A DNA stretch of 64,000 bases from Betaproteobacteria bacterium. GTDB lineage: Bacteria > Bdellovibrionota_B > Oligoflexia > Silvanigrellales > Silvanigrellaceae. Of this stretch, positions 5,610 to 39,436 are shown one piece after another. The stretch is from the NCBI GenBank assembly GCA_016868315.1, contig VGHE01000007.1:62001-126000 (forward strand), read 5' to 3'. The stretch's first letter is position 1. Each line of letters starts with the position of its first letter. The notes beneath the pieces are model-generated. The model was not told the origin of the DNA. It was given only the letters and a program-made list of their open reading frames with translations, and did no database searches. A program made the position numbers and the translations under genes.

Positions 5610-6011
5610 ATGACAGTTGAAACTAAAGCTGAAGTATCGCACGCAAAACCGAAGCGTGCAAAGAAGAAGAAAACCGCCCGCGCTGCTAAGAAAAAAGTCG
5701 GCGGCAAGGCGAAAAAGAAAGTAGTGGCGAAGGCTAAGAAGCCAGCTAAGCGCAAGGCCAAGAAGGCAACTGCGAAGAAGCCAGCAGCGAAGAAAGCTGT
5801 TGCTAAGAAGAAGCCAGCTCGCAAGGCAAAAGCTAAGAAGGCTGTTGCTAAGAAAGCTGTTGCTAAGAAGAAGCCAGCTCGCAAGGCGAAGGCTAAGAAG
5901 GCAAAGGCTAAAAAGGCTAAGAAGCCAGCTGCTAAGAAGGCTAAGAAGCCAGCTGCGAAGAAGGCTCGTAAGGCTGTGGCTAAGGTCACTCCCCTTCACA
6001 AGGCCGGCTAA
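5610..6011 (+). CDS. Lysine/alanine-rich histone H1-like protein
   Basis: A 133-residue, extremely basic protein made almost wholly of Lys, Ala, Pro and Arg after a short N-terminal leader (MTVETKAEVSHAKPK). Its body is degenerate KPARKAKAKK and AVAKK repeats, as in bacterial histone H1-like or AlgP-type proteins that coat and compact DNA. No folded domain is expected. The DNA repeats too: a 38-bp exact copy occurs at 5790-5827 and 5850-5887 (20-codon period), so repeat number could vary. AAGGGA sits about nine bases before the ATG. A strong terminator follows, so it is a single-gene unit. Confidence 0.85.
   Translation: MTVETKAEVSHAKPKRAKKKKTARAAKKKVGGKAKKKVVAKAKKPAKRKAKKATAKKPAAKKAVAKKKPARKAKAKKAVAKKAVAKKKPARKAKAKKAKAKKAKKPAAKKAKKPAAKKARKAVAKVTPLHKAG
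5790..5887 (+). repeat. In-frame tandem repeat inside the histone-like gene
   Basis: Bases 5790-5827 are repeated exactly at 5850-5887 (38 identical bases, 60-base period, 20 codons). The period is a multiple of three, so gain or loss of a unit would change protein length without breaking the frame. Confidence 0.85.
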
Positions 6012-7439: not shown

Positions 7440-8081
7440 ATGGATATGCATGAGTTGATTCGGCAGATGGAACGCGCAGAACGAATTTGGCCAGACGACC
7501 GTCCGTGGGCCATTCAGATCCTAGCCGGCTATCTCCACGTATCGCCTGCGGAGCTTTTGTCGCTGTTTCGCCAAATCAACCCAACGCTCGAGACCGAGCG
7601 CGATCAGGTTCTACCTGAAGACCTTCGCCTGCTGCGTGCACACTGCGAGCGCATCCTTGAGAAGCACTCTTCTGAGAGCCTTGAGGACAAGCGCAAAGAG
7701 CAAGCCAAGGCACGTAAAACCATCCAAACTCTGCTTCCTAAAATCTCAGAGCTCATGGCCTCTAAGGATAACGTCCGCGCTCTCAACACCTACATTTACA
7801 TGATTGGTGAAACGGGCGAAGTCGCAACTCCTGAAGAGAAGGCGCAGTGGTATGAAGAAATGGGACGTCTCAGCCTGAAGGTGAAGAGACACCCCAACGA
7901 AGCTGCCCGTTATTTCCGTTCTGCGGTCAACGCCCTGAGTCTTCTCGAAGACGCAGAAGGCATCCAAGACTTGCTTGAAACCTACGATGAAGAGTTCCAG
8001 GGCGACGAGGCGAGAAAATCTTGGGAGCTCGTTGTGGCAACGGGCAAGGAATCGCTTGCGAAGCTGACCTACTCTATCTGA
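7440..8081 (+). CDS. Hypothetical helical protein, 213 aa
   Basis: Not recognised by family. A soluble, highly charged, helix-rich protein: an N-terminal segment (HELIRQMERAERIWPDDR), a possible small helix-turn-helix-like region (LAGYLHVSPAELLSLFRQIN, ~30-49), a Lys/Glu-rich helix (~80-100), then TPR-like helices in the last third (EAARYFRSAVNALSLL). AGGAGA lies about six bases upstream of the ATG, and a strong terminator follows. The TPR-like end suggests protein-protein binding; this is inference. Confidence 0.7.
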   Translation: MDMHELIRQMERAERIWPDDRPWAIQILAGYLHVSPAELLSLFRQINPTLETERDQVLPEDLRLLRAHCERILEKHSSESLEDKRKEQAKARKTIQTLLPKISELMASKDNVRALNTYIYMIGETGEVATPEEKAQWYEEMGRLSLKVKRHPNEAARYFRSAVNALSLLEDAEGIQDLLETYDEEFQGDEARKSWELVVATGKESLAKLTYSI

Positions 8082-8163
8082 GAGGGCGCTCGAGCGTATC
8101 CGTCAGCCCTGTGTGGCACTGGGCAACCTCTGCCGCTCGCGCTTTGGGTCTGACAACCGAATA

Positions 8164-8194
8164 ACCCCACGGGTGAAACTCGTGGGGTTTTTTG
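8164..8194 (+). terminator. Rho-independent terminator
   Basis: An 11-bp stem (ACCCCACGGGT/ACTCGTGGGGT, one G-U pair) with a GAA loop and six following T residues. It closes the preceding gene and lies immediately before the ATG of the motor-like operon, so the operon either has its promoter in 8082-8163 with partial read-through or depends on attenuation here. Confidence 0.92.
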
Positions 8195-9406
8195 ATGTCT
8201 GAATTTTTGGACACCTGCCAATTCAGAAAATTCAGTGCACTGACAGTGCTTGCTGCTGCGCTTTCAGTAGCGCACGTTCACGTGGCTTTTGCCGCCAATG
8301 TTGATTCCCAGAAAGCCGAGGCTGGGCAACGTTCATCTGCTGATACAGCCTCCACAGAAAAAGAACAGATTAAATCGTTCAACGAAGTTTTGCAGGATCT
8401 GGTGAATGAGTTCGCATTCGATTTGCGAGCAAAAGCCTTAAATTCGTTGCGTACGGTTGCTGTTAGGCGTGTCGCACTGGGCGAGGGCATTCCGCGCTCA
8501 TACGAAAGCTATCTTGAAACACAAATTTCCGATGCATTCCGCAAACACAGTGGAACAAAGGTGCTTCAGTGCACCAACTGTAGAATCAGACGAACGGTTG
8601 TTGAAAATGGTCGGCTTGTGATGACCACCCCCATCAACAATCCACAAGAACTTGATGCGATTGCGAGTCAATTGGGTGTTGAGGCGTGGGTTGATGTGAG
8701 TCTTTTGTACCAGGAAACGAGCATGGTGTTGGGCTTTCATGTGTTCGACGCCAAGTCAAAGGAGCTCGTCTGGACCAAGCTTTACAACACGGAAAATATC
8801 TACAAGCAAAAGATGGAGCAGAAGGAAGCTGAGCTCGCTCAAAAGCAGTCTGTGGAGAAGGAAAAAATCTCAGACTATGTGCTCAACACAACTCTCGGCT
8901 GGCAGCTGGTTCCGAATGTGAAGGACAGCGCGAGTATGTTGTCGGCTACCGTTCGATTTGCAGAGCGTTTCAGCTCGGCAAGGCATGAGGTTGGAACGCG
9001 GTTTGGATTTCTGGTCGCGCCATCGAGTGTGCTTTCCGATTATCCTGGAATTGCGGGCGACCCCGCGTCAAGTGCAGAAATTGTTGATGGCACCAGCAAG
9101 GAAGTCATTCTTCCCTTCACGAAGGGCTTTGCATTGTCAGCCTTCTACTCCAGGATAGTGAGCCCCGATCCTCTTAAAACAGATGGTGTTGTCTGGGGTT
9201 GGGAACTGGGAGCCGGTACGATTGTTTCCACCGGCTACGCATGCTTTTCCGTTCGCACCGGTGCGCATATGCGCATGGGCAAGCGTTTTGTGCTCGATGT
9301 TGGTGGAGCCTACAGCCTGCCCACAACCATTAGCATCCGTAACAAGTACAAGTACACAACTCCGGGAGGTATCGGCGCAGATGTCGGTTTCGGCGTGCAG
9401 TTCTAA
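8195..9406 (+). CDS. Exported protein with TolB/CsgG/FlgO-like N-domain and beta-rich C-domain
   Basis: First gene of the motor-like operon, 403 residues. A signal peptide is visible (basic/polar start, hydrophobic core ALTVLAAALSVAHVHVAF, cleavage near AFAA). The next ~150 residues read like a TolB-N/CsgG/FlgO-type fold (TVAVRRVALGE, then LDAIASQLGVEAWVDVSL, 'Gaxawvxvs' pattern). The C-terminal ~170 residues alternate beta-strands and end in aromatic F, as outer-membrane barrels often do (ADVGFGVQF). Likely an outer-membrane or periplasmic component. The ATG lies directly after a terminator stem with only GGGG as a possible ribosome site. Its 3' end overlaps the next gene by 26 bases. Family assignment is tentative. 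Confidence 0.65.
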   Translation: MSEFLDTCQFRKFSALTVLAAALSVAHVHVAFAANVDSQKAEAGQRSSADTASTEKEQIKSFNEVLQDLVNEFAFDLRAKALNSLRTVAVRRVALGEGIPRSYESYLETQISDAFRKHSGTKVLQCTNCRIRRTVVENGRLVMTTPINNPQELDAIASQLGVEAWVDVSLLYQETSMVLGFHVFDAKSKELVWTKLYNTENIYKQKMEQKEAELAQKQSVEKEKISDYVLNTTLGWQLVPNVKDSASMLSATVRFAERFSSARHEVGTRFGFLVAPSSVLSDYPGIAGDPASSAEIVDGTSKEVILPFTKGFALSAFYSRIVSPDPLKTDGVVWGWELGAGTIVSTGYACFSVRTGAHMRMGKRFVLDVGGAYSLPTTISIRNKYKYTTPGGIGADVGFGVQF

Positions 9407-10157
9407 GCGCCTTTGTGCGCTTATTATTCTTGCAGCAGCGTGCACATCCACTCCACCGGATGATGCGGCGTCTGATCGTGCTGAAGCAAAGGCAAAACCA
9501 AGCCAACGTGAAATCCGTATTGCCCCTCCTCTTGGATCTGGAGAGATTGTAAAGAGACAGCAGCGTGAGCAGATTGAGCAGGTGCTCGCCGGAGAGTCTG
9601 GCACAGATTCTGTTTCAGAGGTCAAACTGCCCGCCTCTGTCATGGGATTGAAGCCCGCTGATATTACTGAAGACCCTATTTCTTTATCGCGCGAGCAGGC
9701 TCGTACCCAACGCACTGATGCTGAGATTGCAGTGAATGCAGGGCAGGGTGAATTCGAGAAAAAATTGGGCGACTTCGATCGTGTCTTGGATGTGAGCGAA
9801 GAAAACAACCGCCCAATGACTCCGAGTTTCATCGGTCAAACACAAAAAATCCGCGAGCTCTTTCAGAGCAGAAAATTCGAAGATGCACTCGTTGAAGCCA
9901 ATGAGCTCCTTCTTCACTATCCGCGATCTGCTTTGTTGTGGACTATGAAGGGGACTCTGCATTTAAGACTGAATCAGAAAGATTTAGCCCTGGCCGCATA
10001 CGAAAAGTCCTTCGACATTGAACCTTCGCGTCGTCTGCTTGCACAGATTGAGGATCTGCGTCGGCTTGTGTCCGAACGAGAGTCAATGCGCAAAAGCCGT
10101 GGCAGTTCGACATCCATAGAGTCGGTTCCTCAAGCGACAGGAGAGCAGCGCAAATGA
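9381..10157 (+). CDS. TPR lipoprotein of the motor-like operon
   Basis: A 258-residue protein starting inside the end of the preceding gene (GGAGG about 12 bases before the ATG). A short signal peptide ends in ILAAAC, an imperfect lipobox, predicting lipidation. A low-complexity charged linker follows, and the last ~100 residues form TPR-type helical hairpins (FEDALVEANELLLHYPRSAL, then KDLALAAYEKSFDIEPS). TPR lipoproteins scaffold envelope complexes; in Myxococcus gliding machinery TPR proteins accompany MotAB-type motors, a parallel and not proof. The stop overlaps the MotA-like start (ATGA), indicating coupled translation. Longer upstream in-frame starts were rejected because they give no signal sequence. 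Confidence 0.75.
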   Translation: MSVSACSSKRLCALIILAAACTSTPPDDAASDRAEAKAKPSQREIRIAPPLGSGEIVKRQQREQIEQVLAGESGTDSVSEVKLPASVMGLKPADITEDPISLSREQARTQRTDAEIAVNAGQGEFEKKLGDFDRVLDVSEENNRPMTPSFIGQTQKIRELFQSRKFEDALVEANELLLHYPRSALLWTMKGTLHLRLNQKDLALAAYEKSFDIEPSRRLLAQIEDLRRLVSERESMRKSRGSSTSIESVPQATGEQRK

Positions 10158-10972
10158 TTGGAGTGCTGGTTGGACTGTCTGGCTTTGCATGGTCACTCTG
10201 GTATGTGTTGCAGCACGGCAGCAATCAGTTCCGCGGGTTCTGGGATCCAGCAGCTGCCATCTTGCTTGGGGTGGGGCCACTGTGCGTGATTTTAATGTCC
10301 CACAGCTTTGTTGATTTTGTTGCAGGAATAAAAACACTCACAAAAATTGCGTTTTTCAGTCAGAAAAAAGAAATGAATCAGATTGCCAACCAGCTTTCTA
10401 CAATGACCTCAGCTGTGCGCACCGAGGGGGTTGGAATTCTTGCACGGTACAAGGAACACCTCAGAAATCCTCTGCTGAAGGATGGTGTAACGCTCATCTT
10501 GTCGGGCTTTACTCCCGATGAAATTCGCCACAATTTGACAGCAAAAATAAACACGAAGCAGAATGAATTTACCCACGCGTCGAGCTTGTTTGAGAACTTG
10601 GGTAAGCTCTGTCCAGGTATGGGATTACTTGGGACGATTGTTGGACTTGTCCAGATGCTCTCCAACATGTCCGACCCCGCTCGACTTGGCCCAGGAATGG
10701 CGATTGCACTTTTGACGACCCTTTACGGACTTCTACTTGGCACAGTTGTGTACACTCCCGTGTCCGAGAAGATATCAATTTACGCAGAGAAGACCCTGCA
10801 GCGGGATTTGATGATTCTCGAAGGTGTCATGTTGATGAAGGAGAAGAAATCGCATGCGCATCTCCGTGATGTGTTGAACACCTATTCGAGTGTTGCCCCA
10901 GCAGAGCGCACGCAAACAAGGAATCCGCACTCTTCGGCGCCTCAGCACCCTCCTCTCTCTCGGTCATCGTGA
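10154..10972 (+). CDS. MotA/TolQ-family stator subunit
   Basis: A 272-residue inner-membrane protein of the MotA family. Four membrane segments are visible: ~1-20, ~30-52, ~150-172 and ~178-203. The conserved channel region is clear: CPGMGLLGTIVGLVQML followed by GPGMAIALLTTLYGLLLG. A large cytoplasmic loop between segments 2 and 3 carries an AVRTEGVGILAR stretch like the MotA rotor-contact region. With MotB it would form a proton or sodium channel producing torque. It is coupled to the TPR lipoprotein upstream and sits nine bases before the motB-like gene. It is outside any flagellar cluster, so whether it drives a flagellum or another machine is open. Confidence 0.88.
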   Translation: MIGVLVGLSGFAWSLWYVLQHGSNQFRGFWDPAAAILLGVGPLCVILMSHSFVDFVAGIKTLTKIAFFSQKKEMNQIANQLSTMTSAVRTEGVGILARYKEHLRNPLLKDGVTLILSGFTPDEIRHNLTAKINTKQNEFTHASSLFENLGKLCPGMGLLGTIVGLVQMLSNMSDPARLGPGMAIALLTTLYGLLLGTVVYTPVSEKISIYAEKTLQRDLMILEGVMLMKEKKSHAHLRDVLNTYSSVAPAERTQTRNPHSSAPQHPPLSRSS

Positions 10973-10981
10973 GGGGGCAGA

Positions 10982-11638
10982 GTGACACATCCATCTATCT
11001 TTGAAACCATACTCCGCCCCCAACGTCGCTCCCGCAAAAAAACGGGAGATTCGCCGTGGATTACGTCCTACGCAGATCTGACAACGAATCTTATGGCTCT
11101 CTTTGTACTCATGTTGGCCATGTCGCAAGTCAATGTTCAGAAGTTCGATGCCGTCTCGCAGGTTGTGACTCGCCAACGCACAGACAGCCTCGATGAATTG
11201 AAAAAGCAGATTGACGCTCAAATTGCCACGCGCGGGTTATCTGGCTCTGTCTCAACAGAATTGGGGATGAGCGGGCTCATGGTGGAGTTCCTTGGTAGCG
11301 TACTTTTTGAGCAAGGAAGCGATAAGCTAAGTGCCTTTGCTGCCAGGGAAGCTGTTCCGATTTTGCAGATTCTTCAAAACACCGACAGCAAATATCTGCT
11401 CAGTTTTGAGGGACATACTGACGATGTTGGCAAGGATGATTTGAACTGGGCGCTCAGCAGTGCACGAGGTGTTTCGTTGTTGAACAGGATGCGCGCACTG
11501 AATGTGTCTCAGGAACGAATGAGTGTTGCAGGTTTCGGCTCTACCCGTCCCAAGGTGTCGACCGAGGGAAAGAGTGGAGAGGAACTTGAGAAGGCAAGGT
11601 CTTTGAATCGAAGGGTGGTGATACGGGTCTATCAATGA
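10982..11638 (+). CDS. MotB/OmpA-family stator subunit
   Basis: A 218-residue protein with a basic N-terminus, a single membrane helix and a C-terminal OmpA-type peptidoglycan-binding domain. The helix begins SYADLTTNLMALFVLMLAMS and places an aspartate at residue 32, the ion-carrying position of MotB. The OmpA domain has LSFEGHTDDVG and a final LNRRVVIRV. The GTG start follows a GAGGGGG sequence. It is short compared with E. coli MotB (about 308), with little linker, so the peptidoglycan domain sits close to the membrane. The stop overlaps the next start (ATGA). Confidence 0.9.
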   Translation: MTHPSIFETILRPQRRSRKKTGDSPWITSYADLTTNLMALFVLMLAMSQVNVQKFDAVSQVVTRQRTDSLDELKKQIDAQIATRGLSGSVSTELGMSGLMVEFLGSVLFEQGSDKLSAFAAREAVPILQILQNTDSKYLLSFEGHTDDVGKDDLNWALSSARGVSLLNRMRALNVSQERMSVAGFGSTRPKVSTEGKSGEELEKARSLNRRVVIRVYQ

Positions 11639-14148
11639 AAATTCAAAGTTTGGTCAACAAAAAAATAAAATCAAAGTGGGGGCAGGCAAGGCTCTCCCTG
11701 ATTAGTTTTTTTGCAGTGCTCAGCTTTATTGAAGTTGAATATGAGACTTCGCCCTTTGGTAATACTCCTGCAGCCTATGCATCAGTGAGCAGCGAAGATT
11801 CCGAGAAAAGCAGATATGAAAGTGAAATCGTTCAGAGCCTAAAGAGTCGTGTGCAAAGTGATTTGAATAAGTACTGCCCTGACGGTTGTTCCATTTTGGG
11901 CATTGAAGCAGAGGCTCGTGAGGTCTTCGACACAAGCTCAGCTTCCTTGGGATTTGAAACAAACGTTGCTGCACCGCGTCGTTTCTCGGTGCGGCGATCA
12001 CTTGTTGAAGTTTTGGTTGACAATCGACTGGGTACTTCCAATATTGAACGGATTGAGAATGTTATTGAGCGCTCGAGCAGGAATTATGGAATTGCTGTAG
12101 AAATTGAATTCATTCGCACTACTCTTCCTGATTCACCCCAGCTTGTGCGATCTGAGTCGCAGGCGCGCAGCCTTGCTCTCGACAACGTCCGATCGGCATA
12201 TGAGAAGATCGTCAATGACTTTTGCCCGGAGGAATGCCGCTTAAATTCGGTCGAGATTTCGACTTCACGGATGTCGGTCGACGAGATTCAGGCACAACCT
12301 GCCCGCCGCATCGCAGTAATTCCTGAGAGCAAATGGGCACTTTACATTCAGGGCAGCACGGTCAATATGAGCATCGATGAACAGATGCCTGACCAGCGCC
12401 GTGAACAAATCGAAGAACTCATGCGTGACAGCATGGAAGCTTATGGTGCTGTTGCTCTGAATGTGAAGAAGACGTTGTTTCCGAAATCTGCCCGTCAGCT
12501 GGAGAAAGATGCTGATGAGATGCGCGACGACCCCTGGGGCTTAGATAAGCTCGGTCGTGCGCTCAAAGTCTTCAGAGAATTTGCCAACACCAAGGAAATT
12601 ATCCGCGAAAGGGAATCACTCAGTCGTGAGACTGAGAATAAAACAGAATCTCTTGCTGAGAGAAGGTCAGAGACGAAGGAAAGCACCGACAAATCTCGCG
12701 AGAGCTCTCAATTGCAATCGCAAACCGAGAATAAGGTTTCTGACAAAGAAAGCATTTCGTCTTTCTGGAGTCAGGAAAAGATTCTTCTTGCTGCTGCAGT
12801 TCTCGCAGTTCTGTTGATTGTTGCTGCCGTTGCCTTACGCGTTGTTCTGACCGGAAAGCAGGTGCAGCACCTCATTTCCGAGGGTCGTGGTGGGATCTCC
12901 GATGGGTTTTCGGGATCTCCCGATGAGAGCCAGATAGATCCGTCACTTATCGGTGTTCCACCTTCGACCCGCTCGCTGCCACAAGCACCGAGTGTTGCAC
13001 AAGTCACAACAGTGCGTTCGCCCGTGCATTTGGCGCAGGGGCTCACAGATGAACTCGCACAGCGTCTCAACACTCAGTCGCTAAAGGATGAACTGACCCA
13101 GGCGTTTATCACTCAGCCCAAGCTGGCGCGCGAAGTTTTCGCACGTGTTTTGCGTGAGGACGGTGTCGAGTTTTCGGCAAAATGTGTGGCTATTTTGGGA
13201 GAGATGGTTGTTTTTGATCTGGTAAGCGACGACGATCTCAAGAAGGAAGTTGCTCTACTCGCTGAATATATTCACGTCAGTACTCCATACGTGAGCGAGA
13301 GCGAGCAGTTGACTGTATTGCGAAACCTGAAGCTTAAGATAACAGCAGCTAAGATGCGAATCATGACACAGCGCACCAAAGAGGCGTTTGATTTCTTGAG
13401 AACTCAGTCGGCACAGCAGATTTATGATCTTATCGTAGATGAAAGCGCACGCTCGCAAGCTGTGGTGCTGACCCAGCTTTCAACAGAGAGGCGGCGGATG
13501 GTCTTCGAATTGTTTGCAGGTACGTTGAAGAACGACCTTTTGCGCGAGTTGTGCATCAAGGAAACGCTGCCACGTGAATATCTGCAGAACGTTGCTGATG
13601 CTCTGAAAAGAAAGTTGCGTCAGACAGGAGTCCTCGATGGTGAGTCATTGGGAGGAGCAGATGTTCTCATTGACCTCATGGAGCGCTCTGACCGCGATGG
13701 TCAGTCTCAGATGATGTCTGATCTTGACGTCAACAACCCTGAGCTCTCACGCCAAGTACGCAGCCGCCTCGTGAGTGTCGAGAGCCTAGCTTACCTCAGC
13801 GATGGGCTTTTACTCGAAATTTTCCTCTCGCTCGAACCCCAGACGATGGTGGTCTTCTTGGCGGGAGTGCGTGAACACATTCGCACAATGATTCTAAACA
13901 AGGCTCCCGACGAAGTGGCGGCCGACTGGAGTTCAAGTGCTGCAAGTGTCAGGAGCATTGACCCAGAGACATTCCGTCTTGCCGAGATGCAGGTGATTGG
14001 CAAGGTTCGTGGCTTTGCAGCCAATGGAATGCTGAATTTGTTCGAGATCAATGAGATCATGTTCCCGATTGATAGATCTGGACGGGAGAATTCATCCCGC
14101 ACTGAGGCTGCGCATCGGGTACCTGTATCCAACTTGGTTGTTGCTTGA
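11635..14148 (+). CDS. Membrane-anchored FliG-like protein with duplicated periplasmic domain (FliF/FliG-like chimera)
   Basis: An 837-residue protein unlike standard flagellar parts. Residues ~20-36 form a signal/anchor helix ending near AAYAS. The periplasmic part (~50-375) holds two repeats, each with CPxxC (C81-C85 and C197-C201), a strand-helix unit and a conserved end with 'YG...TLP/TLFP'; the unit resembles the ring-building folds of FliF/YscJ, but this is pattern-level only. A charged Ser/Glu/Lys linker precedes one membrane span at ~383-405. The cytoplasmic part looks like FliG: a middle domain (~583-630, FLRTQSAQQIYDLIVDES) and a C-domain (~674-790, GGADVLIDLMERSDRDG, PELSRQVRSRL, FLAGVREHIRTMIL). 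Charged torque residues of FliG-C are only partly kept. Translation is coupled to the MotB-like gene. The topology matches a FliF-FliG rotor in one chain. No exact family is known to me. Confidence 0.75.
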   Translation: MKIQSLVNKKIKSKWGQARLSLISFFAVLSFIEVEYETSPFGNTPAAYASVSSEDSEKSRYESEIVQSLKSRVQSDLNKYCPDGCSILGIEAEAREVFDTSSASLGFETNVAAPRRFSVRRSLVEVLVDNRLGTSNIERIENVIERSSRNYGIAVEIEFIRTTLPDSPQLVRSESQARSLALDNVRSAYEKIVNDFCPEECRLNSVEISTSRMSVDEIQAQPARRIAVIPESKWALYIQGSTVNMSIDEQMPDQRREQIEELMRDSMEAYGAVALNVKKTLFPKSARQLEKDADEMRDDPWGLDKLGRALKVFREFANTKEIIRERESLSRETENKTESLAERRSETKESTDKSRESSQLQSQTENKVSDKESISSFWSQEKILLAAAVLAVLLIVAAVALRVVLTGKQVQHLISEGRGGISDGFSGSPDESQIDPSLIGVPPSTRSLPQAPSVAQVTTVRSPVHLAQGLTDELAQRLNTQSLKDELTQAFITQPKLAREVFARVLREDGVEFSAKCVAILGEMVVFDLVSDDDLKKEVALLAEYIHVSTPYVSESEQLTVLRNLKLKITAAKMRIMTQRTKEAFDFLRTQSAQQIYDLIVDESARSQAVVLTQLSTERRRMVFELFAGTLKNDLLRELCIKETLPREYLQNVADALKRKLRQTGVLDGESLGGADVLIDLMERSDRDGQSQMMSDLDVNNPELSRQVRSRLVSVESLAYLSDGLLLEIFLSLEPQTMVVFLAGVREHIRTMILNKAPDEVAADWSSSAASVRSIDPETFRLAEMQVIGKVRGFAANGMLNLFEINEIMFPIDRSGRENSSRTEAAHRVPVSNLVVA

Positions 14149-14214
14149 GTCTGTTTTTTCCTACGAGAAAGACCTGGCAGCAGATGTATTGGTATTGTTC
14201 AGGAGGCCAAGGCT

Positions 14215-15894
14215 ATGCGTTCAAGTTTGTTTAGACGCTTCGTGGCAGCGGGTGTGATCGCTGCGGCCTTCACGGGGATTGCCAGCACCGGTTGCATCAA
14301 ACAAAAGCCTGCAAGCCGTAGCTATGGCATTGAAGATCGCGACAATCTAGACCCTGAAACACAACGCCTGGTGAATGAGGCGTGCATGCCTGAAGATGAG
14401 TCTGGGCTTTTGGATCCGGATACCGAAGGGCAGTTGAAAGCAGATTGTCTTGCGCTTCATCAACTCGCTGTCAACATGCAAGCGGGACGCAATGGCAAAG
14501 TCAAAGTTCAAGTTCAAAGGAAGAAAAGCGACTTTGAAGAATTTCTTCCTAGCGCAGACATGGTTGCGCTGCTTGGCGAAATGAAAAAGTCTGTGACTCA
14601 ACCTGAAGAGACCGATGTGCTGAGGTTCTTTGGCTGTCGTATTACTCCCGCTCTCGGAGATCCAAATACACTTCTTGGTCAGAAGGGAACAGGGACAAAC
14701 GATCCAAAGGATTGCGCAGCTTTTGCAACCGATCCGAAGTGGGGAACAACCATTTTGGGTGATACACGGCAGTTCGAATTTGTTTTTGTCAGAGGTGCCG
14801 ACAGCAAACTCTACCAAGCTGTTCGAGTGACCGGGAACTGGCAGGAGCTCTCTGCAATCTTTATTTATCGCAAGCCCATGGCGCGCACTGTCATGGTCAC
14901 TCATCGTCCGGATTCGTGGTCAGACCAAATCGCTTTCCCTGCACCGTTGCCTTCGGATCGCTTCTTCGAGGGCAAAGAGGGAAGTGATGAGCAGGATGTT
15001 GCGCGTCAGATGCTTGGACTGCAGGAAAGTGAAAAGGCTCCGCGTGACCTAGAGGAATTTTCCCAGGTTTGGCTGAAGCAACAGGTTGATGGCGCGCGTC
15101 GTGTTGTTGTCGGCGTCTCGGCTGCTGTGATTCTCACTGCTGCATCGCTTCCAGCTTTGGGTGCTGCGATGGGGAGCTTCTGGACGGCGACAGCGGGCAC
15201 AGTTGGTTACTTTACTGCCGGAGCGACTTCAGGTGCTGCCGCGGCGGCAGGAATCTCTTCGGCTGGAGGCGCTGCGGCGGCCATGGCGACCAGTGCATTC
15301 GGAGTAGCGATTGCTGCGGGTGGTATCTTCACTGCGGTGAGTATTCCGCTGCACCGCTGGATTGAAGATCTTCCGCGTACACCGCTCAAAACAGCAATGC
15401 AGACGGCCTATTTTGTAATGGTGGCGGCCGACGTCTATGGAATGGGGCGTGGGGCTGTTGTGCATACGGCACGTGCCTTCGGAACGACGAAAAATTTGCT
15501 TGGAACCGTCTTCAATCCGCAGTCCTGGAAAAATTTGTTCAATCTCTCGCCAAAGGCGGTCAGCAAGAAGGAGATCGTGAGCACCCTGAATGCCAAGGGT
15601 GGCCCTGCATGGGAGCGCTTCAAAGTGGCTCTCAATGGATTGAGAAACGCAGCCGGGAATATGCGTGGTACGCGTCCGAGCGCGCCGAGAGCTCTACCCC
15701 CTGAAATTCAACTTGAAATCAAAGGGCTGTTTGCTGGTTCTGCGGATGCCGCGGCCAAGTCCGGAGATGTTGCATCGCGTGTGCGTCTTTCCCAGATGCT
15801 TGAAGAGAATTTCATAAAATCACGCCTTGCTGACCTCGAACGGGCGTTTGTAACCTCGGGACTCGGGAACTACTCAGGGGGGCGTCCCCTCTAA
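14215..15894 (+). CDS. Large lipoprotein with internal hydrophobic Gly/Ala-rich block
   Basis: A 559-residue protein with a signal peptide and clear lipobox STGC (Cys27), preceded by AGGAGG. Residues ~30-290 are a soluble cysteine-containing domain of unknown family. Residues ~295-385 form a long hydrophobic Gly/Ala-rich block that could be two or three membrane helices (VVVGVSAAVILTAASLPALG, then GAAAAMATSAFGVAIAAGG). A basic, helical C-terminus follows. It is 66 bases after the FliG-like gene on the same strand, so it may belong to that operon. A lipoprotein with this much internal hydrophobicity is unusual; it could be an inner-membrane lipoprotein or insert into membranes. Function unknown. 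Confidence 0.7.
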   Translation: MRSSLFRRFVAAGVIAAAFTGIASTGCIKQKPASRSYGIEDRDNLDPETQRLVNEACMPEDESGLLDPDTEGQLKADCLALHQLAVNMQAGRNGKVKVQVQRKKSDFEEFLPSADMVALLGEMKKSVTQPEETDVLRFFGCRITPALGDPNTLLGQKGTGTNDPKDCAAFATDPKWGTTILGDTRQFEFVFVRGADSKLYQAVRVTGNWQELSAIFIYRKPMARTVMVTHRPDSWSDQIAFPAPLPSDRFFEGKEGSDEQDVARQMLGLQESEKAPRDLEEFSQVWLKQQVDGARRVVVGVSAAVILTAASLPALGAAMGSFWTATAGTVGYFTAGATSGAAAAAGISSAGGAAAAMATSAFGVAIAAGGIFTAVSIPLHRWIEDLPRTPLKTAMQTAYFVMVAADVYGMGRGAVVHTARAFGTTKNLLGTVFNPQSWKNLFNLSPKAVSKKEIVSTLNAKGGPAWERFKVALNGLRNAAGNMRGTRPSAPRALPPEIQLEIKGLFAGSADAAAKSGDVASRVRLSQMLEENFIKSRLADLERAFVTSGLGNYSGGRPL

Positions 15895-16020: not shown

Positions 16021-16899
16021 GTGGAGAAGGTTAACCTCAAAAGAGTCTGCAATGAGATCGTTAAGCCTTCGGGATTTCTCGACTATCGAGAGTATCTCGA
16101 AGCGGTTTTCAATGCGCTCAAGCAGCTCGACATCGATTATACTTATTTTGATTTTGCAGAGGATGCAGGGCTCGGGCGCAACAACTTGATGAACGCCTTG
16201 GTTCGGAATCGCCGCCCATTGACCCCCAAGGCAGCCAAGAAAATCGTCCAGAACCTGAGCCTGGTTGGACGCGAACGGCAGTATTTCGAGGCTTTGGTTG
16301 AACATGCCTACGCGCGAGACCCTATCGAACGTGAATCCATCTTGCGCAAGTTGGTCATGCTCAAAGGCAGCCTGGTCGCCAATGAGCTCGACCGTTGGCA
16401 GCTTGAGTTTTTCAGCCACTGGTCGAATGCGGTGTTGCTCGAGCTTATGAACTTAGAGGATTCCACGCTTGAGCCTGAGTGGTTCCAAGATCAAATCCGT
16501 CCGAAAATTACCGTGGATGAAATTCGCTATGGACTCGATTTATTATGTCGCATTGGTTATGCAAAACGCGATGAAGTTCAAAGTAAATATATTCCTCTTC
16601 AAACTGATGTGAGTACCGGAGCAGAGGTCGCGAGCGTGGCTATGATTCGCTATCACCAGACACTGCTCGACTTGGCTCGTGCTGCTGTTGTGGATGTTCC
16701 AGCAGAGCAGCGGGAAGTTAATTCTCTTGTGCTGAGCGTCACGCAAAACGAATTTGAAGCAATTAAAGCGAGTATACAGGAGTTCTCGCAGAAAATTTTT
16801 GACAGTCATCCACCCAAACCTCCGGATGCATCATCACGAGTTGTTCAAATCTCTATGCAGGTCTTTCCACTGACTCGAAGCAAAGGGGAGAAGAAATGA
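16021..16899 (+). CDS. TIGR02147 family protein
   Basis: A 292-residue protein with the TIGR02147 pattern: an N-terminal 'YREYLEAVFNALKQ' helix, a helix-turn-helix-like segment (FAEDAGLGRNNLMNALVRNR, ~41-60) followed by LTPKAAKKIVQNLSL, and a 'YFEALVEHAYARDP' segment. The family is abundant in Bdellovibrio and Fibrobacter relatives and is thought to regulate transcription; targets are not known. The GTG start has an AAAGGGG site about seven bases upstream. Its stop overlaps the next start (ATGA), tying it to the DUF4382 lipoprotein and matrixin. A large inverted repeat precedes it. Confidence 0.85.
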   Translation: MEKVNLKRVCNEIVKPSGFLDYREYLEAVFNALKQLDIDYTYFDFAEDAGLGRNNLMNALVRNRRPLTPKAAKKIVQNLSLVGRERQYFEALVEHAYARDPIERESILRKLVMLKGSLVANELDRWQLEFFSHWSNAVLLELMNLEDSTLEPEWFQDQIRPKITVDEIRYGLDLLCRIGYAKRDEVQSKYIPLQTDVSTGAEVASVAMIRYHQTLLDLARAAVVDVPAEQREVNSLVLSVTQNEFEAIKASIQEFSQKIFDSHPPKPPDASSRVVQISMQVFPLTRSKGEKK

Positions 16900-17966
16900 T
16901 TTTTTGGAGCAGCAAAAAATCCAATCACGTGTTTCGTAAAACTCTTCTCACATTTGCAACCGCAGGCTGCATATTGCTTTACGTTCTGAGCGGCTGTCGG
17001 GTTCAGGCGGGTAATCCATCCGCTGACAAGCCCAAAACCCCGGGGACGGTCACGGTTGCGCTTGCCGATGCTCCCGTGGATGAGCTGTCGAACTTGTACG
17101 TCACCGTGAAGGGAATCGCTTTTGCAGCCGAGGGTACGGGGCGTTGTTTGCGCGAACCTGCACGAGCTTGCGCTGATTCGAGTTTGGTTTCGTTTGAGTT
17201 CAACAGCACTATTGAGGTCGACCTGTTGAGTCTTTCGGACGGTCGTACTGAAATTTTACCTTTCTCTCAGGAACTCCCATCGGGAACATATGAAGGATTA
17301 CGTTTGTTTTTGAACGAAGGCAGTTCTGTGCGCGGAGTGCTCAAGAGCGATGGCAGCACTGTTGAGGTTGATTTTCCTGTGAGCCCACTCGGAAAGCGTG
17401 AGTTCACAATCGCACAGGAATTTGATGTTCAAGAGGGAACTGAAAATCAATTGATCATTCACGTCGACTTGCGTCGCTCACTGCGTAAGAATCCAAACGG
17501 ACGGTTCTTCCTGTCGCCCATCGTTAATGTGGTTCCGGAACGCTTTGCTGCGCGCTTGTTCGGAGATGTTGCGGACGCAAATGTGACACGCATCTGTGCC
17601 TACAACGAGGCAGGCAAGCGACGTCCGGATGGCTCAGGACATTCAGGGGGCAAGCCTGGGCAACCTTCAATAAATCCACAGCAGCCACCCCGGCCATCGT
17701 ACCCTGTTCCAACGCAGCCCACACGCTCGCCCTTTCCGCAGGCACCGGTACCCCCGCAACCTCCGTTGCGTCAGCCCGATGCAACCAGTTCGTGTGATAA
17801 TGCCGAGGCTGTTGCAGATCTAAGTGACAGCAAACGTAGCTATGATCTCAGGTACTTGCCACCCGTGCGCTACACCTTGCGGGCATTTAAGAAGGATGGC
17901 TCTTACACCGATACCTCAGTGACCGAACCGCTTTTGCCTCGCGAGAGCAGGGAGCTCGGACTGTGA
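16896..17966 (+). CDS. DUF4382-domain lipoprotein
   Basis: A 356-residue lipoprotein: basic N-terminus, hydrophobic core and lipobox LSGC. Residues ~45-210 fit DUF4382, an immunoglobulin-like or beta-sandwich domain: GTVTVALADAPVDELSNLYV, then VKGIAFAAEG and the 'LPSGTYEGLRLFL' strand. The C-terminal part is a Pro/Gln-rich linker (~245-295) followed by a short Cys-containing domain. Function of DUF4382 is unknown; such proteins are envelope-exposed. It is coupled to the TIGR02147 gene and followed 31 bases later by a metalloprotease. Confidence 0.8.
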   Translation: MIFWSSKKSNHVFRKTLLTFATAGCILLYVLSGCRVQAGNPSADKPKTPGTVTVALADAPVDELSNLYVTVKGIAFAAEGTGRCLREPARACADSSLVSFEFNSTIEVDLLSLSDGRTEILPFSQELPSGTYEGLRLFLNEGSSVRGVLKSDGSTVEVDFPVSPLGKREFTIAQEFDVQEGTENQLIIHVDLRRSLRKNPNGRFFLSPIVNVVPERFAARLFGDVADANVTRICAYNEAGKRRPDGSGHSGGKPGQPSINPQQPPRPSYPVPTQPTRSPFPQAPVPPQPPLRQPDATSSCDNAEAVADLSDSKRSYDLRYLPPVRYTLRAFKKDGSYTDTSVTEPLLPRESRELGL

Positions 17967-38650: not shown

Positions 38651-39436
38651 TCAGTTGACTTCACCCACCTTTTGCGCGGACAGCTGCATGGTGTTGTCGT
38701 ACGATTTAACAGCTTTTTGCAGGGCTTCATAGGTACGGTGTGCGATAATCAGGTTTGTCATGTTTTTCATCGGATTGACATTGCTACCTTCAATAAATCC
38801 CTGCGTGAGTTCTCCGGAAGGTGCGACCATGTTCTCGGGTGGTCCGTCGTGCACGAACAGATTGTCGCCGAGCCGTTGCAGTACTTTGAGGTCGTTGAAC
38901 GCCACGGTTTTGAGTTTATCAATGAATTTGTCGCCCTCGTAGACTTCACCACTGGGCAGTATGCGCATCTGGCCTTCGCTCAATCCGGTGATTGCGCCGC
39001 GTTCACCAATGACCGTCGCGCCATTCTTGGTCACGAGTGTTCCATCGCTGGTCAAGGAGAAACTTCCATCGCGTGTGTAGCGTTCGCCAAAGGGAGTATT
39101 AACGGCAAAGAAACCATTTCCTTGAATCGCCATGTCGGTGTTGGAGCCGGTGCGTTTGAGCGCGCCCTGAATGTGACTTGTTTCGACGTTTGAAAGTGTG
39201 ACGTATCCCATCTCGTTGCCGTGCAGCGGATGAATTTCACGCATGTCGAGTTTGAATTGTGCTGGCGGGAGTGGGCTTGTGTATGCAGGCCATGGATTTG
39301 CTTCAAGTGCAGCGAAGGTGACCTGCTCCTCCTTGAAGCCTGTGGTGTTCATGTTTGCCACATTGTTTGCGAGAATCTCAAGAACCCGTTCTTGAACCAT
39401 GCCACCTGAAAGCGGAGCATAGATATTCTTGAGCAT
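38651..39436 (-). CDS. Flagellar basal-body rod protein, FlgF-like
   Basis: A 261-residue protein of the FlgF/FlgG rod family: an N-terminal LANNVANMNTTGFKEE motif, mid-protein MAIQGNGFFAVNTPFGERYTRDG, and a C-terminal SNVNPMKNMTNLIIAHRTYE. The N- and C-terminal helices drive rod stacking. Its length and the early APLSGGMVQE stretch suit FlgF more than FlgG (usually ~260 with other start). A GGGAGG site lies seven bases before the ATG. No other flagellar gene is near except the MotAB-like pair 27 kb away, so it is either a scattered rod gene or a paralogue. Confidence 0.85.
   Translation of the reverse strand: MLKNIYAPLSGGMVQERVLEILANNVANMNTTGFKEEQVTFAALEANPWPAYTSPLPPAQFKLDMREIHPLHGNEMGYVTLSNVETSHIQGALKRTGSNTDMAIQGNGFFAVNTPFGERYTRDGSFSLTSDGTLVTKNGATVIGERGAITGLSEGQMRILPSGEVYEGDKFIDKLKTVAFNDLKVLQRLGDNLFVHDGPPENMVAPSGELTQGFIEGSNVNPMKNMTNLIIAHRTYEALQKAVKSYDNTMQLSAQKVGEVN

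Follow-up and report, generated by a model that had tools for sequence, protein, structure and literature searches.

The formation of rings by RBM3 domains, the anchoring of MotB to peptidoglycan, the ion-driven turning of MotA and the pushing of FliG_C are established biology of the families that make up the flagellar motor (FliF, FliG and MotAB/PomAB). Motors of the MotAB type also work without a flagellum, as in Zorya (ZorAB) and in the Agl-Glt gliding machine of Myxococcus, which combines a MotAB-family motor with tetratricopeptide repeat (TPR), lipoprotein and outer-membrane parts and, to our knowledge, has no rotor of the FliG or FliF type. Artificial FliF-FliG fusions in Salmonella assemble and rotate flagella (PMC4768692), and a FliF-FliG fusion of Vibrio forms 34- or 35-mer rings (PMC11481574). 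The Chlamydiaceae have a natural fusion of ~330 aa with no SpoIIIAG-like domain (RBM3) and only the M region of FliG, and MotAB is not among the few flagellar genes listed for them (PMC4768692). This protein, without RBM3, is the only natural FliF-FliG fusion that we found reported in the open literature. Here we describe a six-gene operon at positions 8195–15894 of a 64,000-nucleotide window (the whole stretch of DNA analysed) from a bacterium of the order Silvanigrellales, class Oligoflexia, whose draft genome (27 contigs, 3.24 Mb) is 95% complete. The operon probably encodes a dedicated rotary motor made from flagellar motor parts, without rod, export gate or filament. We found no description of such a motor system in the open literature, preprints and most subscription papers lying outside the scope of that search.

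As a preliminary description of the locus had proposed from its sequence, six open reading frames (ORFs) lie on the same strand, spaced by overlaps or short gaps:

8195–9406, + strand: gene 1, exported outer-membrane protein (ATG start; a TTG lies just upstream at 8192)
9381–10157, + strand: gene 2, TPR lipoprotein (ATG and lipobox LAAAC; overlaps gene 1 by 26 nt)
10154–10972, + strand: gene 3, MotA-type stator subunit, 272 aa (Pfam MotA_ExbB, E 9e-23; 4-nt overlap with gene 2)
10982–11638, + strand: gene 4, MotB-type stator subunit (Pfam MotB_plug, E 2e-15, and OmpA, E 3e-12; 9-nt gap after gene 3)
11635–14148, + strand: gene 5, predicted FliF-FliG fusion rotor protein, 837 aa (Pfam and fold; 4-nt overlap with gene 4)
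14215–15894, + strand: gene 6, lipoprotein, 559 aa (ORF; 66-nt gap after gene 5)

The Pfam matches of genes 3–5 are above the curated cut-offs, and the MotA-like and MotB-like stators named in that description are confirmed. So is its TPR lipoprotein, by the lipobox, although the TPR matches of gene 2 are below the cut-off; the mechanical ORF start of this gene at 9183 is too early, and the ATG at 9381 yields the signal peptide with the lipobox. Genes 1–5 have the same order in three more genomes of the family (36%–82% identity), and a fourth has genes 2–5 in that order, its contig ending within gene 1, so a chance gene order is excluded. Gene 6, with a long hydrophobic Ala/Gly-rich stretch, has counterparts in just two further genomes, both of the host's genus (three in all), and its place after gene 5 is taken by another gene in two genera of the same family; it is therefore not a core part. 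No export gate, rod, hook or filament gene was found within the operon by ORF calls and Pfam. The earlier statement that the operon has no other flagellar gene nearby is true over ~22 kb, beyond which an FlgF/FlgG-type rod/hook family gene lies at 38654–39436 (−), apart from other flagellar genes; the host also has an ordinary flagellum, encoded elsewhere in its genome.

The operon shares with the flagellar motor the RBM3 S-ring fold, the FliG N-M-C fold, a PomA-like MotA and a MotB with plug and OmpA domains. It differs in that the rotor is in one chain with two RBM3 and no RBM1/RBM2 domains, no dedicated FliM/FliN, export gate, rod or filament is encoded in it, an outer-membrane barrel and a TPR lipoprotein are added, and the E98-type residue of MotA and the R281-type residue of FliG are both changed. 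The chlamydial protein likewise has a FliF-type periplasmic part, a membrane helix and a FliG segment, in a bacterium without flagella, whereas gene 5 keeps RBM3, has a FliG part with N, M and C domains, and is accompanied in the operon by genes for a MotAB stator and envelope parts. The Salmonella and Vibrio proteins also place FliF and FliG in one chain, but these engineered or mutant fusions are laboratory-made, contain full FliF and FliG, and act within a flagellum. In the portion of a survey of MotAB evolution that we draw on (PMC12505986), stators form two groups, flagellar and generic, with no mention of a fused-rotor system, and AglRS of the Agl-Glt machine fall in the non-flagellar (GIT) group, whereas the MotA of gene 3 is closest to PomA. 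Zorya is alike in using a MotAB-type motor without a flagellum; no ZorC, ZorD or ZorE gene was found near gene 3, whose product has no long ZorA tail, and the PADLOC matches reflect only generic MotB resemblance. Membership of the operon in Zorya was rejected because gene 3 has only 272 aa and no ZorC/D or ZorE neighbour.

An alignment of 21 orthologues of gene 5 reveals a signal peptide, two periplasmic domains each carrying an invariant CxxxC, a conserved segment (DPxGLxxLRxxLxxFRELAGTKE), a variable linker, one membrane helix and a cytoplasmic FliG-like part. These map to the window as follows:

11794–12132, + strand: first RBM3 (S-ring) domain (fold 6sd1, Z 9.6; CxxxC at 11875–11889)
12133–12504, + strand: second RBM3 domain (fold 8z5v, Z 10.0, root-mean-square deviation (rmsd) 2.5; CxxxC at 12223–12237)
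12778–12849 (approximate), + strand: transmembrane helix (hydrophobicity; helix 380–417 in the model)
13156–13374 (approximate), + strand: FliG N-domain-like helices (model residues 508–802 aligned to FliG 4–323)
13414–13626, + strand: FliG_M domain (Pfam E 1.2e-10; fold)
13720–14037, + strand: FliG_C torque domain (Pfam E 8.8e-7; fold 1qc7, 8ucs)

The AlphaFold2 model of gene 5 that was searched against the PDB has a mean pLDDT (predicted local distance difference test) of 72.6 and a pTM (predicted template modelling score) of 0.30, at which the domains are usable and their arrangement is not. Residues 508–802 match full FliG, with N, M and C domains (Z 14.7); FliG_C alone matches 1qc7 (Z 13.3, rmsd 1.9 Å) and 8ucs, a FliG bound to MotAB (Z 12.8); and by sequence profile gene 5 matches PDB FliG at E 1e-16. 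Gene 5 is not a separate cytoplasmic FliG, as its chain also contains an exported N-terminal half and a membrane helix. The preliminary description had called it a membrane-bound FliG-like protein, which the Pfam matches, the membrane helix and the structural match to FliG all bear out; what it had overlooked is the FliF S-ring half. On sequence and models, gene 5 is in our view a natural FliF(RBM3 ×2)-transmembrane-FliG fusion, with MS-ring and C-ring rotor parts in one chain. At its C-terminus (window ~14127–14145), nearly every orthologue has a conserved VA/VAA end behind a tail of variable sequence, a pattern that a recognition or processing signal would leave.

Residues 54–165 and 167–283 each match the FliF RBM3/S-ring domain in the fold search (Z 9.6–10.0, rmsd 2.5–3.4), by a modest margin over the next unrelated folds (Z ≤8.5), and profile comparison identifies the two domains as repeats of each other (E 9e-18). 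Profiles of these domains against FliF stayed weak with few relatives added and reached significance only once sequences from other lineages were included. Those fused relatives, of 553–740 aa, have Pfam YscJ_FliF_C, FliG_M and FliG_C in one chain, with YscJ_FliF_C at E 1e-6 and over the cut-off at loci L215 and L216, and just at the cut-off in L214. Their periplasmic profile aligns over the whole FliF RBM3 at E 4e-9 (the best of 20 column-shuffled controls gave 0.023 and the FliF RBM1-2 region 0.31), and a profile of them plus the Oligoflexia relatives matches domain 1 of gene 5 at E 1e-6. It is because these relatives bridge its domains to FliF that we read gene 5 as a fusion. The RBM1-RBM2 region (PF01514, YscJ_FliF) had no match in gene 5 in the Pfam scan, and the sole PF01514 match in the host genome is its ordinary FliF.

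Rotor and stator may form a matched pair distinct from those of the flagellum. In a maximum-likelihood tree of 84 MotA sequences, MotA of the gene 3 type (type A, the window's own subtype of the motor) forms one clade (support 100/99), to which the flagellar stators encoded in those genomes do not belong. The MotB of gene 4 keeps the plug domain, the OmpA-like peptidoglycan-binding domain and the ion-binding Asp motif YAD. In E. coli, two charge pairs link MotA and FliG, R90 with D288/D289 and E98 with R281 (PMC12505986). With E. coli numbering transferred through our own alignment, the R90-type Arg is kept in 27 of 27 type-A MotA sequences; the E98/E96-type acid is present in 0/27, whereas flagellar MotA sequences from the class have it in 10/10. 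In the type-A rotors, the R281 equivalent in FliG_C is E or D in all 22, whereas the host's own flagellar FliG keeps Arg. The D288 equivalent is acidic in 17/17 Oligoflexales rotors and S in the window species and its nearest relative. The joint change on both sides of one contact, a correlation drawn from alignments, fits a private stator–rotor pair.

The outer parts of the set consist of genes 1 and 2. Gene 1 was modelled from four sequences, with a mean pLDDT of only 63.7. Residues ~63–202 are predicted to form a periplasmic LpoB/TolB-N-like domain (LpoB, Z 12.6), and residues ~225–404 an eight-stranded outer-membrane beta-barrel (NspA barrel, Z 14.6, rmsd 2.5), and the last residue is a phenylalanine of the kind that closes such barrels. 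The preliminary description of this product as a TolB/FlgO-like exported protein did not include the barrel. A related TolB-N/LpoB-type fold is there in the model, no FlgO family match was found in Pfam or NCBIfam, and the C-terminal half is modelled as a barrel, not as the beta-propeller of TolB. Gene 2 probably encodes an outer-membrane lipoprotein, and the barrel gene and TPR gene are adjacent also in other families of Oligoflexia.

Each locus was read individually, since a MotA or FliG count by itself does not tell a flagellar system from a non-flagellar one. Searching genome contigs with a single sequence gave no match; an alignment-based scan gave 22 named loci. Outside Silvanigrellales the set is split among three separate loci, on other contigs or far apart: barrel with TPR lipoprotein, motA with motB, and rotor. 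Even so, the parts are inherited together. Among 53 genomes of the class, 26 have both the rotor and type-A MotA, none the rotor only, two MotA only and 25 neither, and rotor and barrel gene agree in 49/53. At least some exceptions are assembly gaps, such as that of G004, where the contig ends 5 bases past the barrel gene match. All three unlinked modules were lost together in several places; G031 and G033 are without them, whereas G020, G021, G028 and G049 of the same genus keep all three. The type-A genomes tested for FliMN_C have two matches each, as for one FliM and one FliN, with a doubled FliN-type match in G025 alone; a second FliM was not found in any, and it follows that these genomes have no second switch complex. 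Oligoflexales neighbours of the rotor gene, read as housekeeping-type genes, were dropped as motor parts, as was the likewise unrelated ClpS/ClpA beside motAB.

Further subtypes of the gene set are found in Oligoflexia, often several per genome, the clearest of which are:

L106–L108, L166 and L169: subtype B
L105 and L109: subtype C
L110, L134, L161 and L174–L183: mixed D group

The boundaries of B–D rest in places on weak sequence similarity, and for some D-group members, which have no FliG profile match, MotA and gene order were the sole grounds of assignment. One of the D loci is a second, divergent motor set of the host itself (L134:2508–7486, contig C19), encoding a TPR/PEGA-type lipoprotein, a 779-aa FliF-FliG-like protein with FliG_C over the cut-off and a clear RGDxxxV RBM3 end, MotA and MotB. 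The same contig also has a second, very divergent stand-alone FliG (L136:9147–10190, 347 aa) besides the flagellar one.

Related operons with barrel, TPR, fusion, MotA and MotB genes are present in other Oligoflexia and in three or more lineages besides; among the genomes that carry them are some, 93%–98% complete, in which no flagellar export gene was found. G019 (93% complete) has a subtype B operon of barrel, TPR, FliG-like (592 aa), MotA and MotB genes, and FliF, FlhA, FliM/FliN and ordinary FliG were not found in it. G100 (96% complete, of another phylum) encodes a TPR/PEGA-type lipoprotein together with a fused rotor, and a different contig carries its one motAB pair; again no FliF, FlhA or FliM/N was found. 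In G124, G129 and G271 (95%–98% complete) a single cluster holds the genes for fused rotor, MotA and MotB, and FlhA was not found. A UPF0164/PorV-like barrel gene lies upstream of the cluster in G124 and G271, and a ~1300-aa gene stands between rotor and MotA in G129 and G271. A separate phylum is established only for G100 and G246. Absence from drafts is not proof, and chance loss in all of these genomes is unlikely. Homologous operons are hence not always part of a flagellar regulon, and the domains and these relatives lend good support to the proposed torque machine, self-contained and with components in every layer of the envelope. At L214:2225–6073 and L215:1712–5626, the proteins between fused rotor and MotA (1282–1304 aa) have coiled-coil-like matches; they are possibly cargo or track in those lineages.

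For ring formation, rotation, stator–rotor contact and outer-membrane coupling we infer the following arrangement. Gene 5 would form an inner-membrane ring, its tandem RBM3 domains making an S-ring-like periplasmic ring, its helix crossing the bilayer and its FliG N-M-C part serving as a cytoplasmic torque ring in the same polypeptide. MotA and MotB would sit around this ring, anchored to peptidoglycan by the OmpA domain of MotB, and ion flow would turn the MotA ring, which would push the FliG_C helix. Because the set has no rod, hook or filament gene, torque presumably goes to periplasmic or outer-membrane partners; the TPR lipoprotein and the barrel protein, the only candidates in the operon, would take up the rotation or brace it. 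As to the work done, surface gliding or adhesin movement is our leading but tentative guess, closely followed by envelope maintenance or energy transfer; the transport or predation-related roles suggested in the preliminary description are candidates too.

If the operon is such a motor, its genes and predicted folds show that the flagellar torque core (S-ring, C-ring FliG and stator) can exist with neither a secretion system nor a filament, as a unit that recurs in several lineages. The origin and modularity of the flagellar motor then become directly testable, a one-protein rotor would be a simpler object for structural work on torque, and the locus suggests that the envelopes of Bdellovibrio-related bacteria contain a source of mechanical force that had gone unrecognised. 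We lean slightly towards a broader view, that a multi-lineage class of envelope rotary machines, each a FliF(RBM3)-FliG ring with its own MotAB, works on the outer membrane of flagellated and non-flagellated cells alike, and is possibly nearer to a pre-export ancestor of the flagellar rotor–stator than to a degenerate flagellum.

Comparisons of sequence or structure establish what the dedicated-motor reading draws on: the domain make-up, the separate MotA clade, the co-inheritance and the related operons in genomes without the flagellar export gene. Several points weigh against it. The link of gene 5 to FliF depends on fold and bridging relatives, because the window's periplasmic domains alone gave no significant profile match to FliF. 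The acidic pair of FliG_C is lost in the window genus. The association of rotor with MotA (Fisher p 4e-13) and with barrel (9e-11) ignores phylogeny, and nearly all genomes compared are drafts or metagenome-assembled genomes. Finally, the type-A rotor is found only in flagellated genomes (25 of 26 with FliF, the 26th with FlhA and FliM/N; Fisher p 0.024, uncorrected), as would be expected of an accessory to the ordinary flagellum, in which an extra membrane-anchored FliG/S-ring and alternative stators brake, boost or brace the polar motor and the products of genes 1 and 2 form an outer disk like FlgO/FlgP/FlgT or the Campylobacter disks. TPR proteins do scaffold some flagellar stators, and the TolB-N/LpoB-like domain of gene 1 would suit such a role. 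We nevertheless consider an accessory unlikely, since the set includes a rotor ring of its own, its stators form a clade apart from the flagellar ones, relatives occur in genomes without FlhA, and ~19 flagellated genomes of the class are without the type-A set.

That same domain of gene 1, together with the lipoprotein of gene 2, can also be read as part of a Tol-Pal/TonB-like energy transducer, in which the fused protein, driven by MotAB, would act as a mobile link instead of a ring that rotates, doing work on the outer membrane or cell wall such as constriction or outer-membrane stabilisation. Several Oligoflexales rotor genes adjoin an L,D-transpeptidase-like gene, DsbA and pilMNOPQ (named by sequence reading), which favours this idea; FliG_M/C and RBM3 are, however, ring-building domains, the operon has no TonB/TolA-like protein, and a set with a housekeeping role would hardly be lost so patchily from genus to genus. 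We judge a transducer about as unlikely as an accessory, and retain a dedicated rotary motor as the probable function of the operon.

The site between the upstream gene and the operon is:

8163–8190, + strand: terminator-like hairpin and T-run (consensus match only)

The hairpin has 12 pairs followed by T's and ends the upstream gene; it is weak, and a similar number of sites is expected by chance. That gene (7440–8081, +), directly upstream of the operon, encodes a 213-aa protein of unknown family that is syntenic with the motor genes and much more conserved than they are (97%–99% identical within the genus, 91% in another genus). Farther upstream, a Lys/Ala-rich repetitive ORF (5610–6011, +) resembles histone H1-like proteins, and just downstream of the operon (16021–17966, +) are a DUF4423 regulator and then a DUF4382 lipoprotein. 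Elsewhere in Oligoflexia, we observed a conserved four-gene set (L164, L167, L168:1771–8429, L171, L173 and L181) that encodes a ~360-aa protein, a MotA of 260–290 aa in its own clade, a 211-aa MotB and a ~1400-aa SF1-type helicase. We regard the set as a possible defence system resembling Zorya, in which the long ZorA tail is absent.

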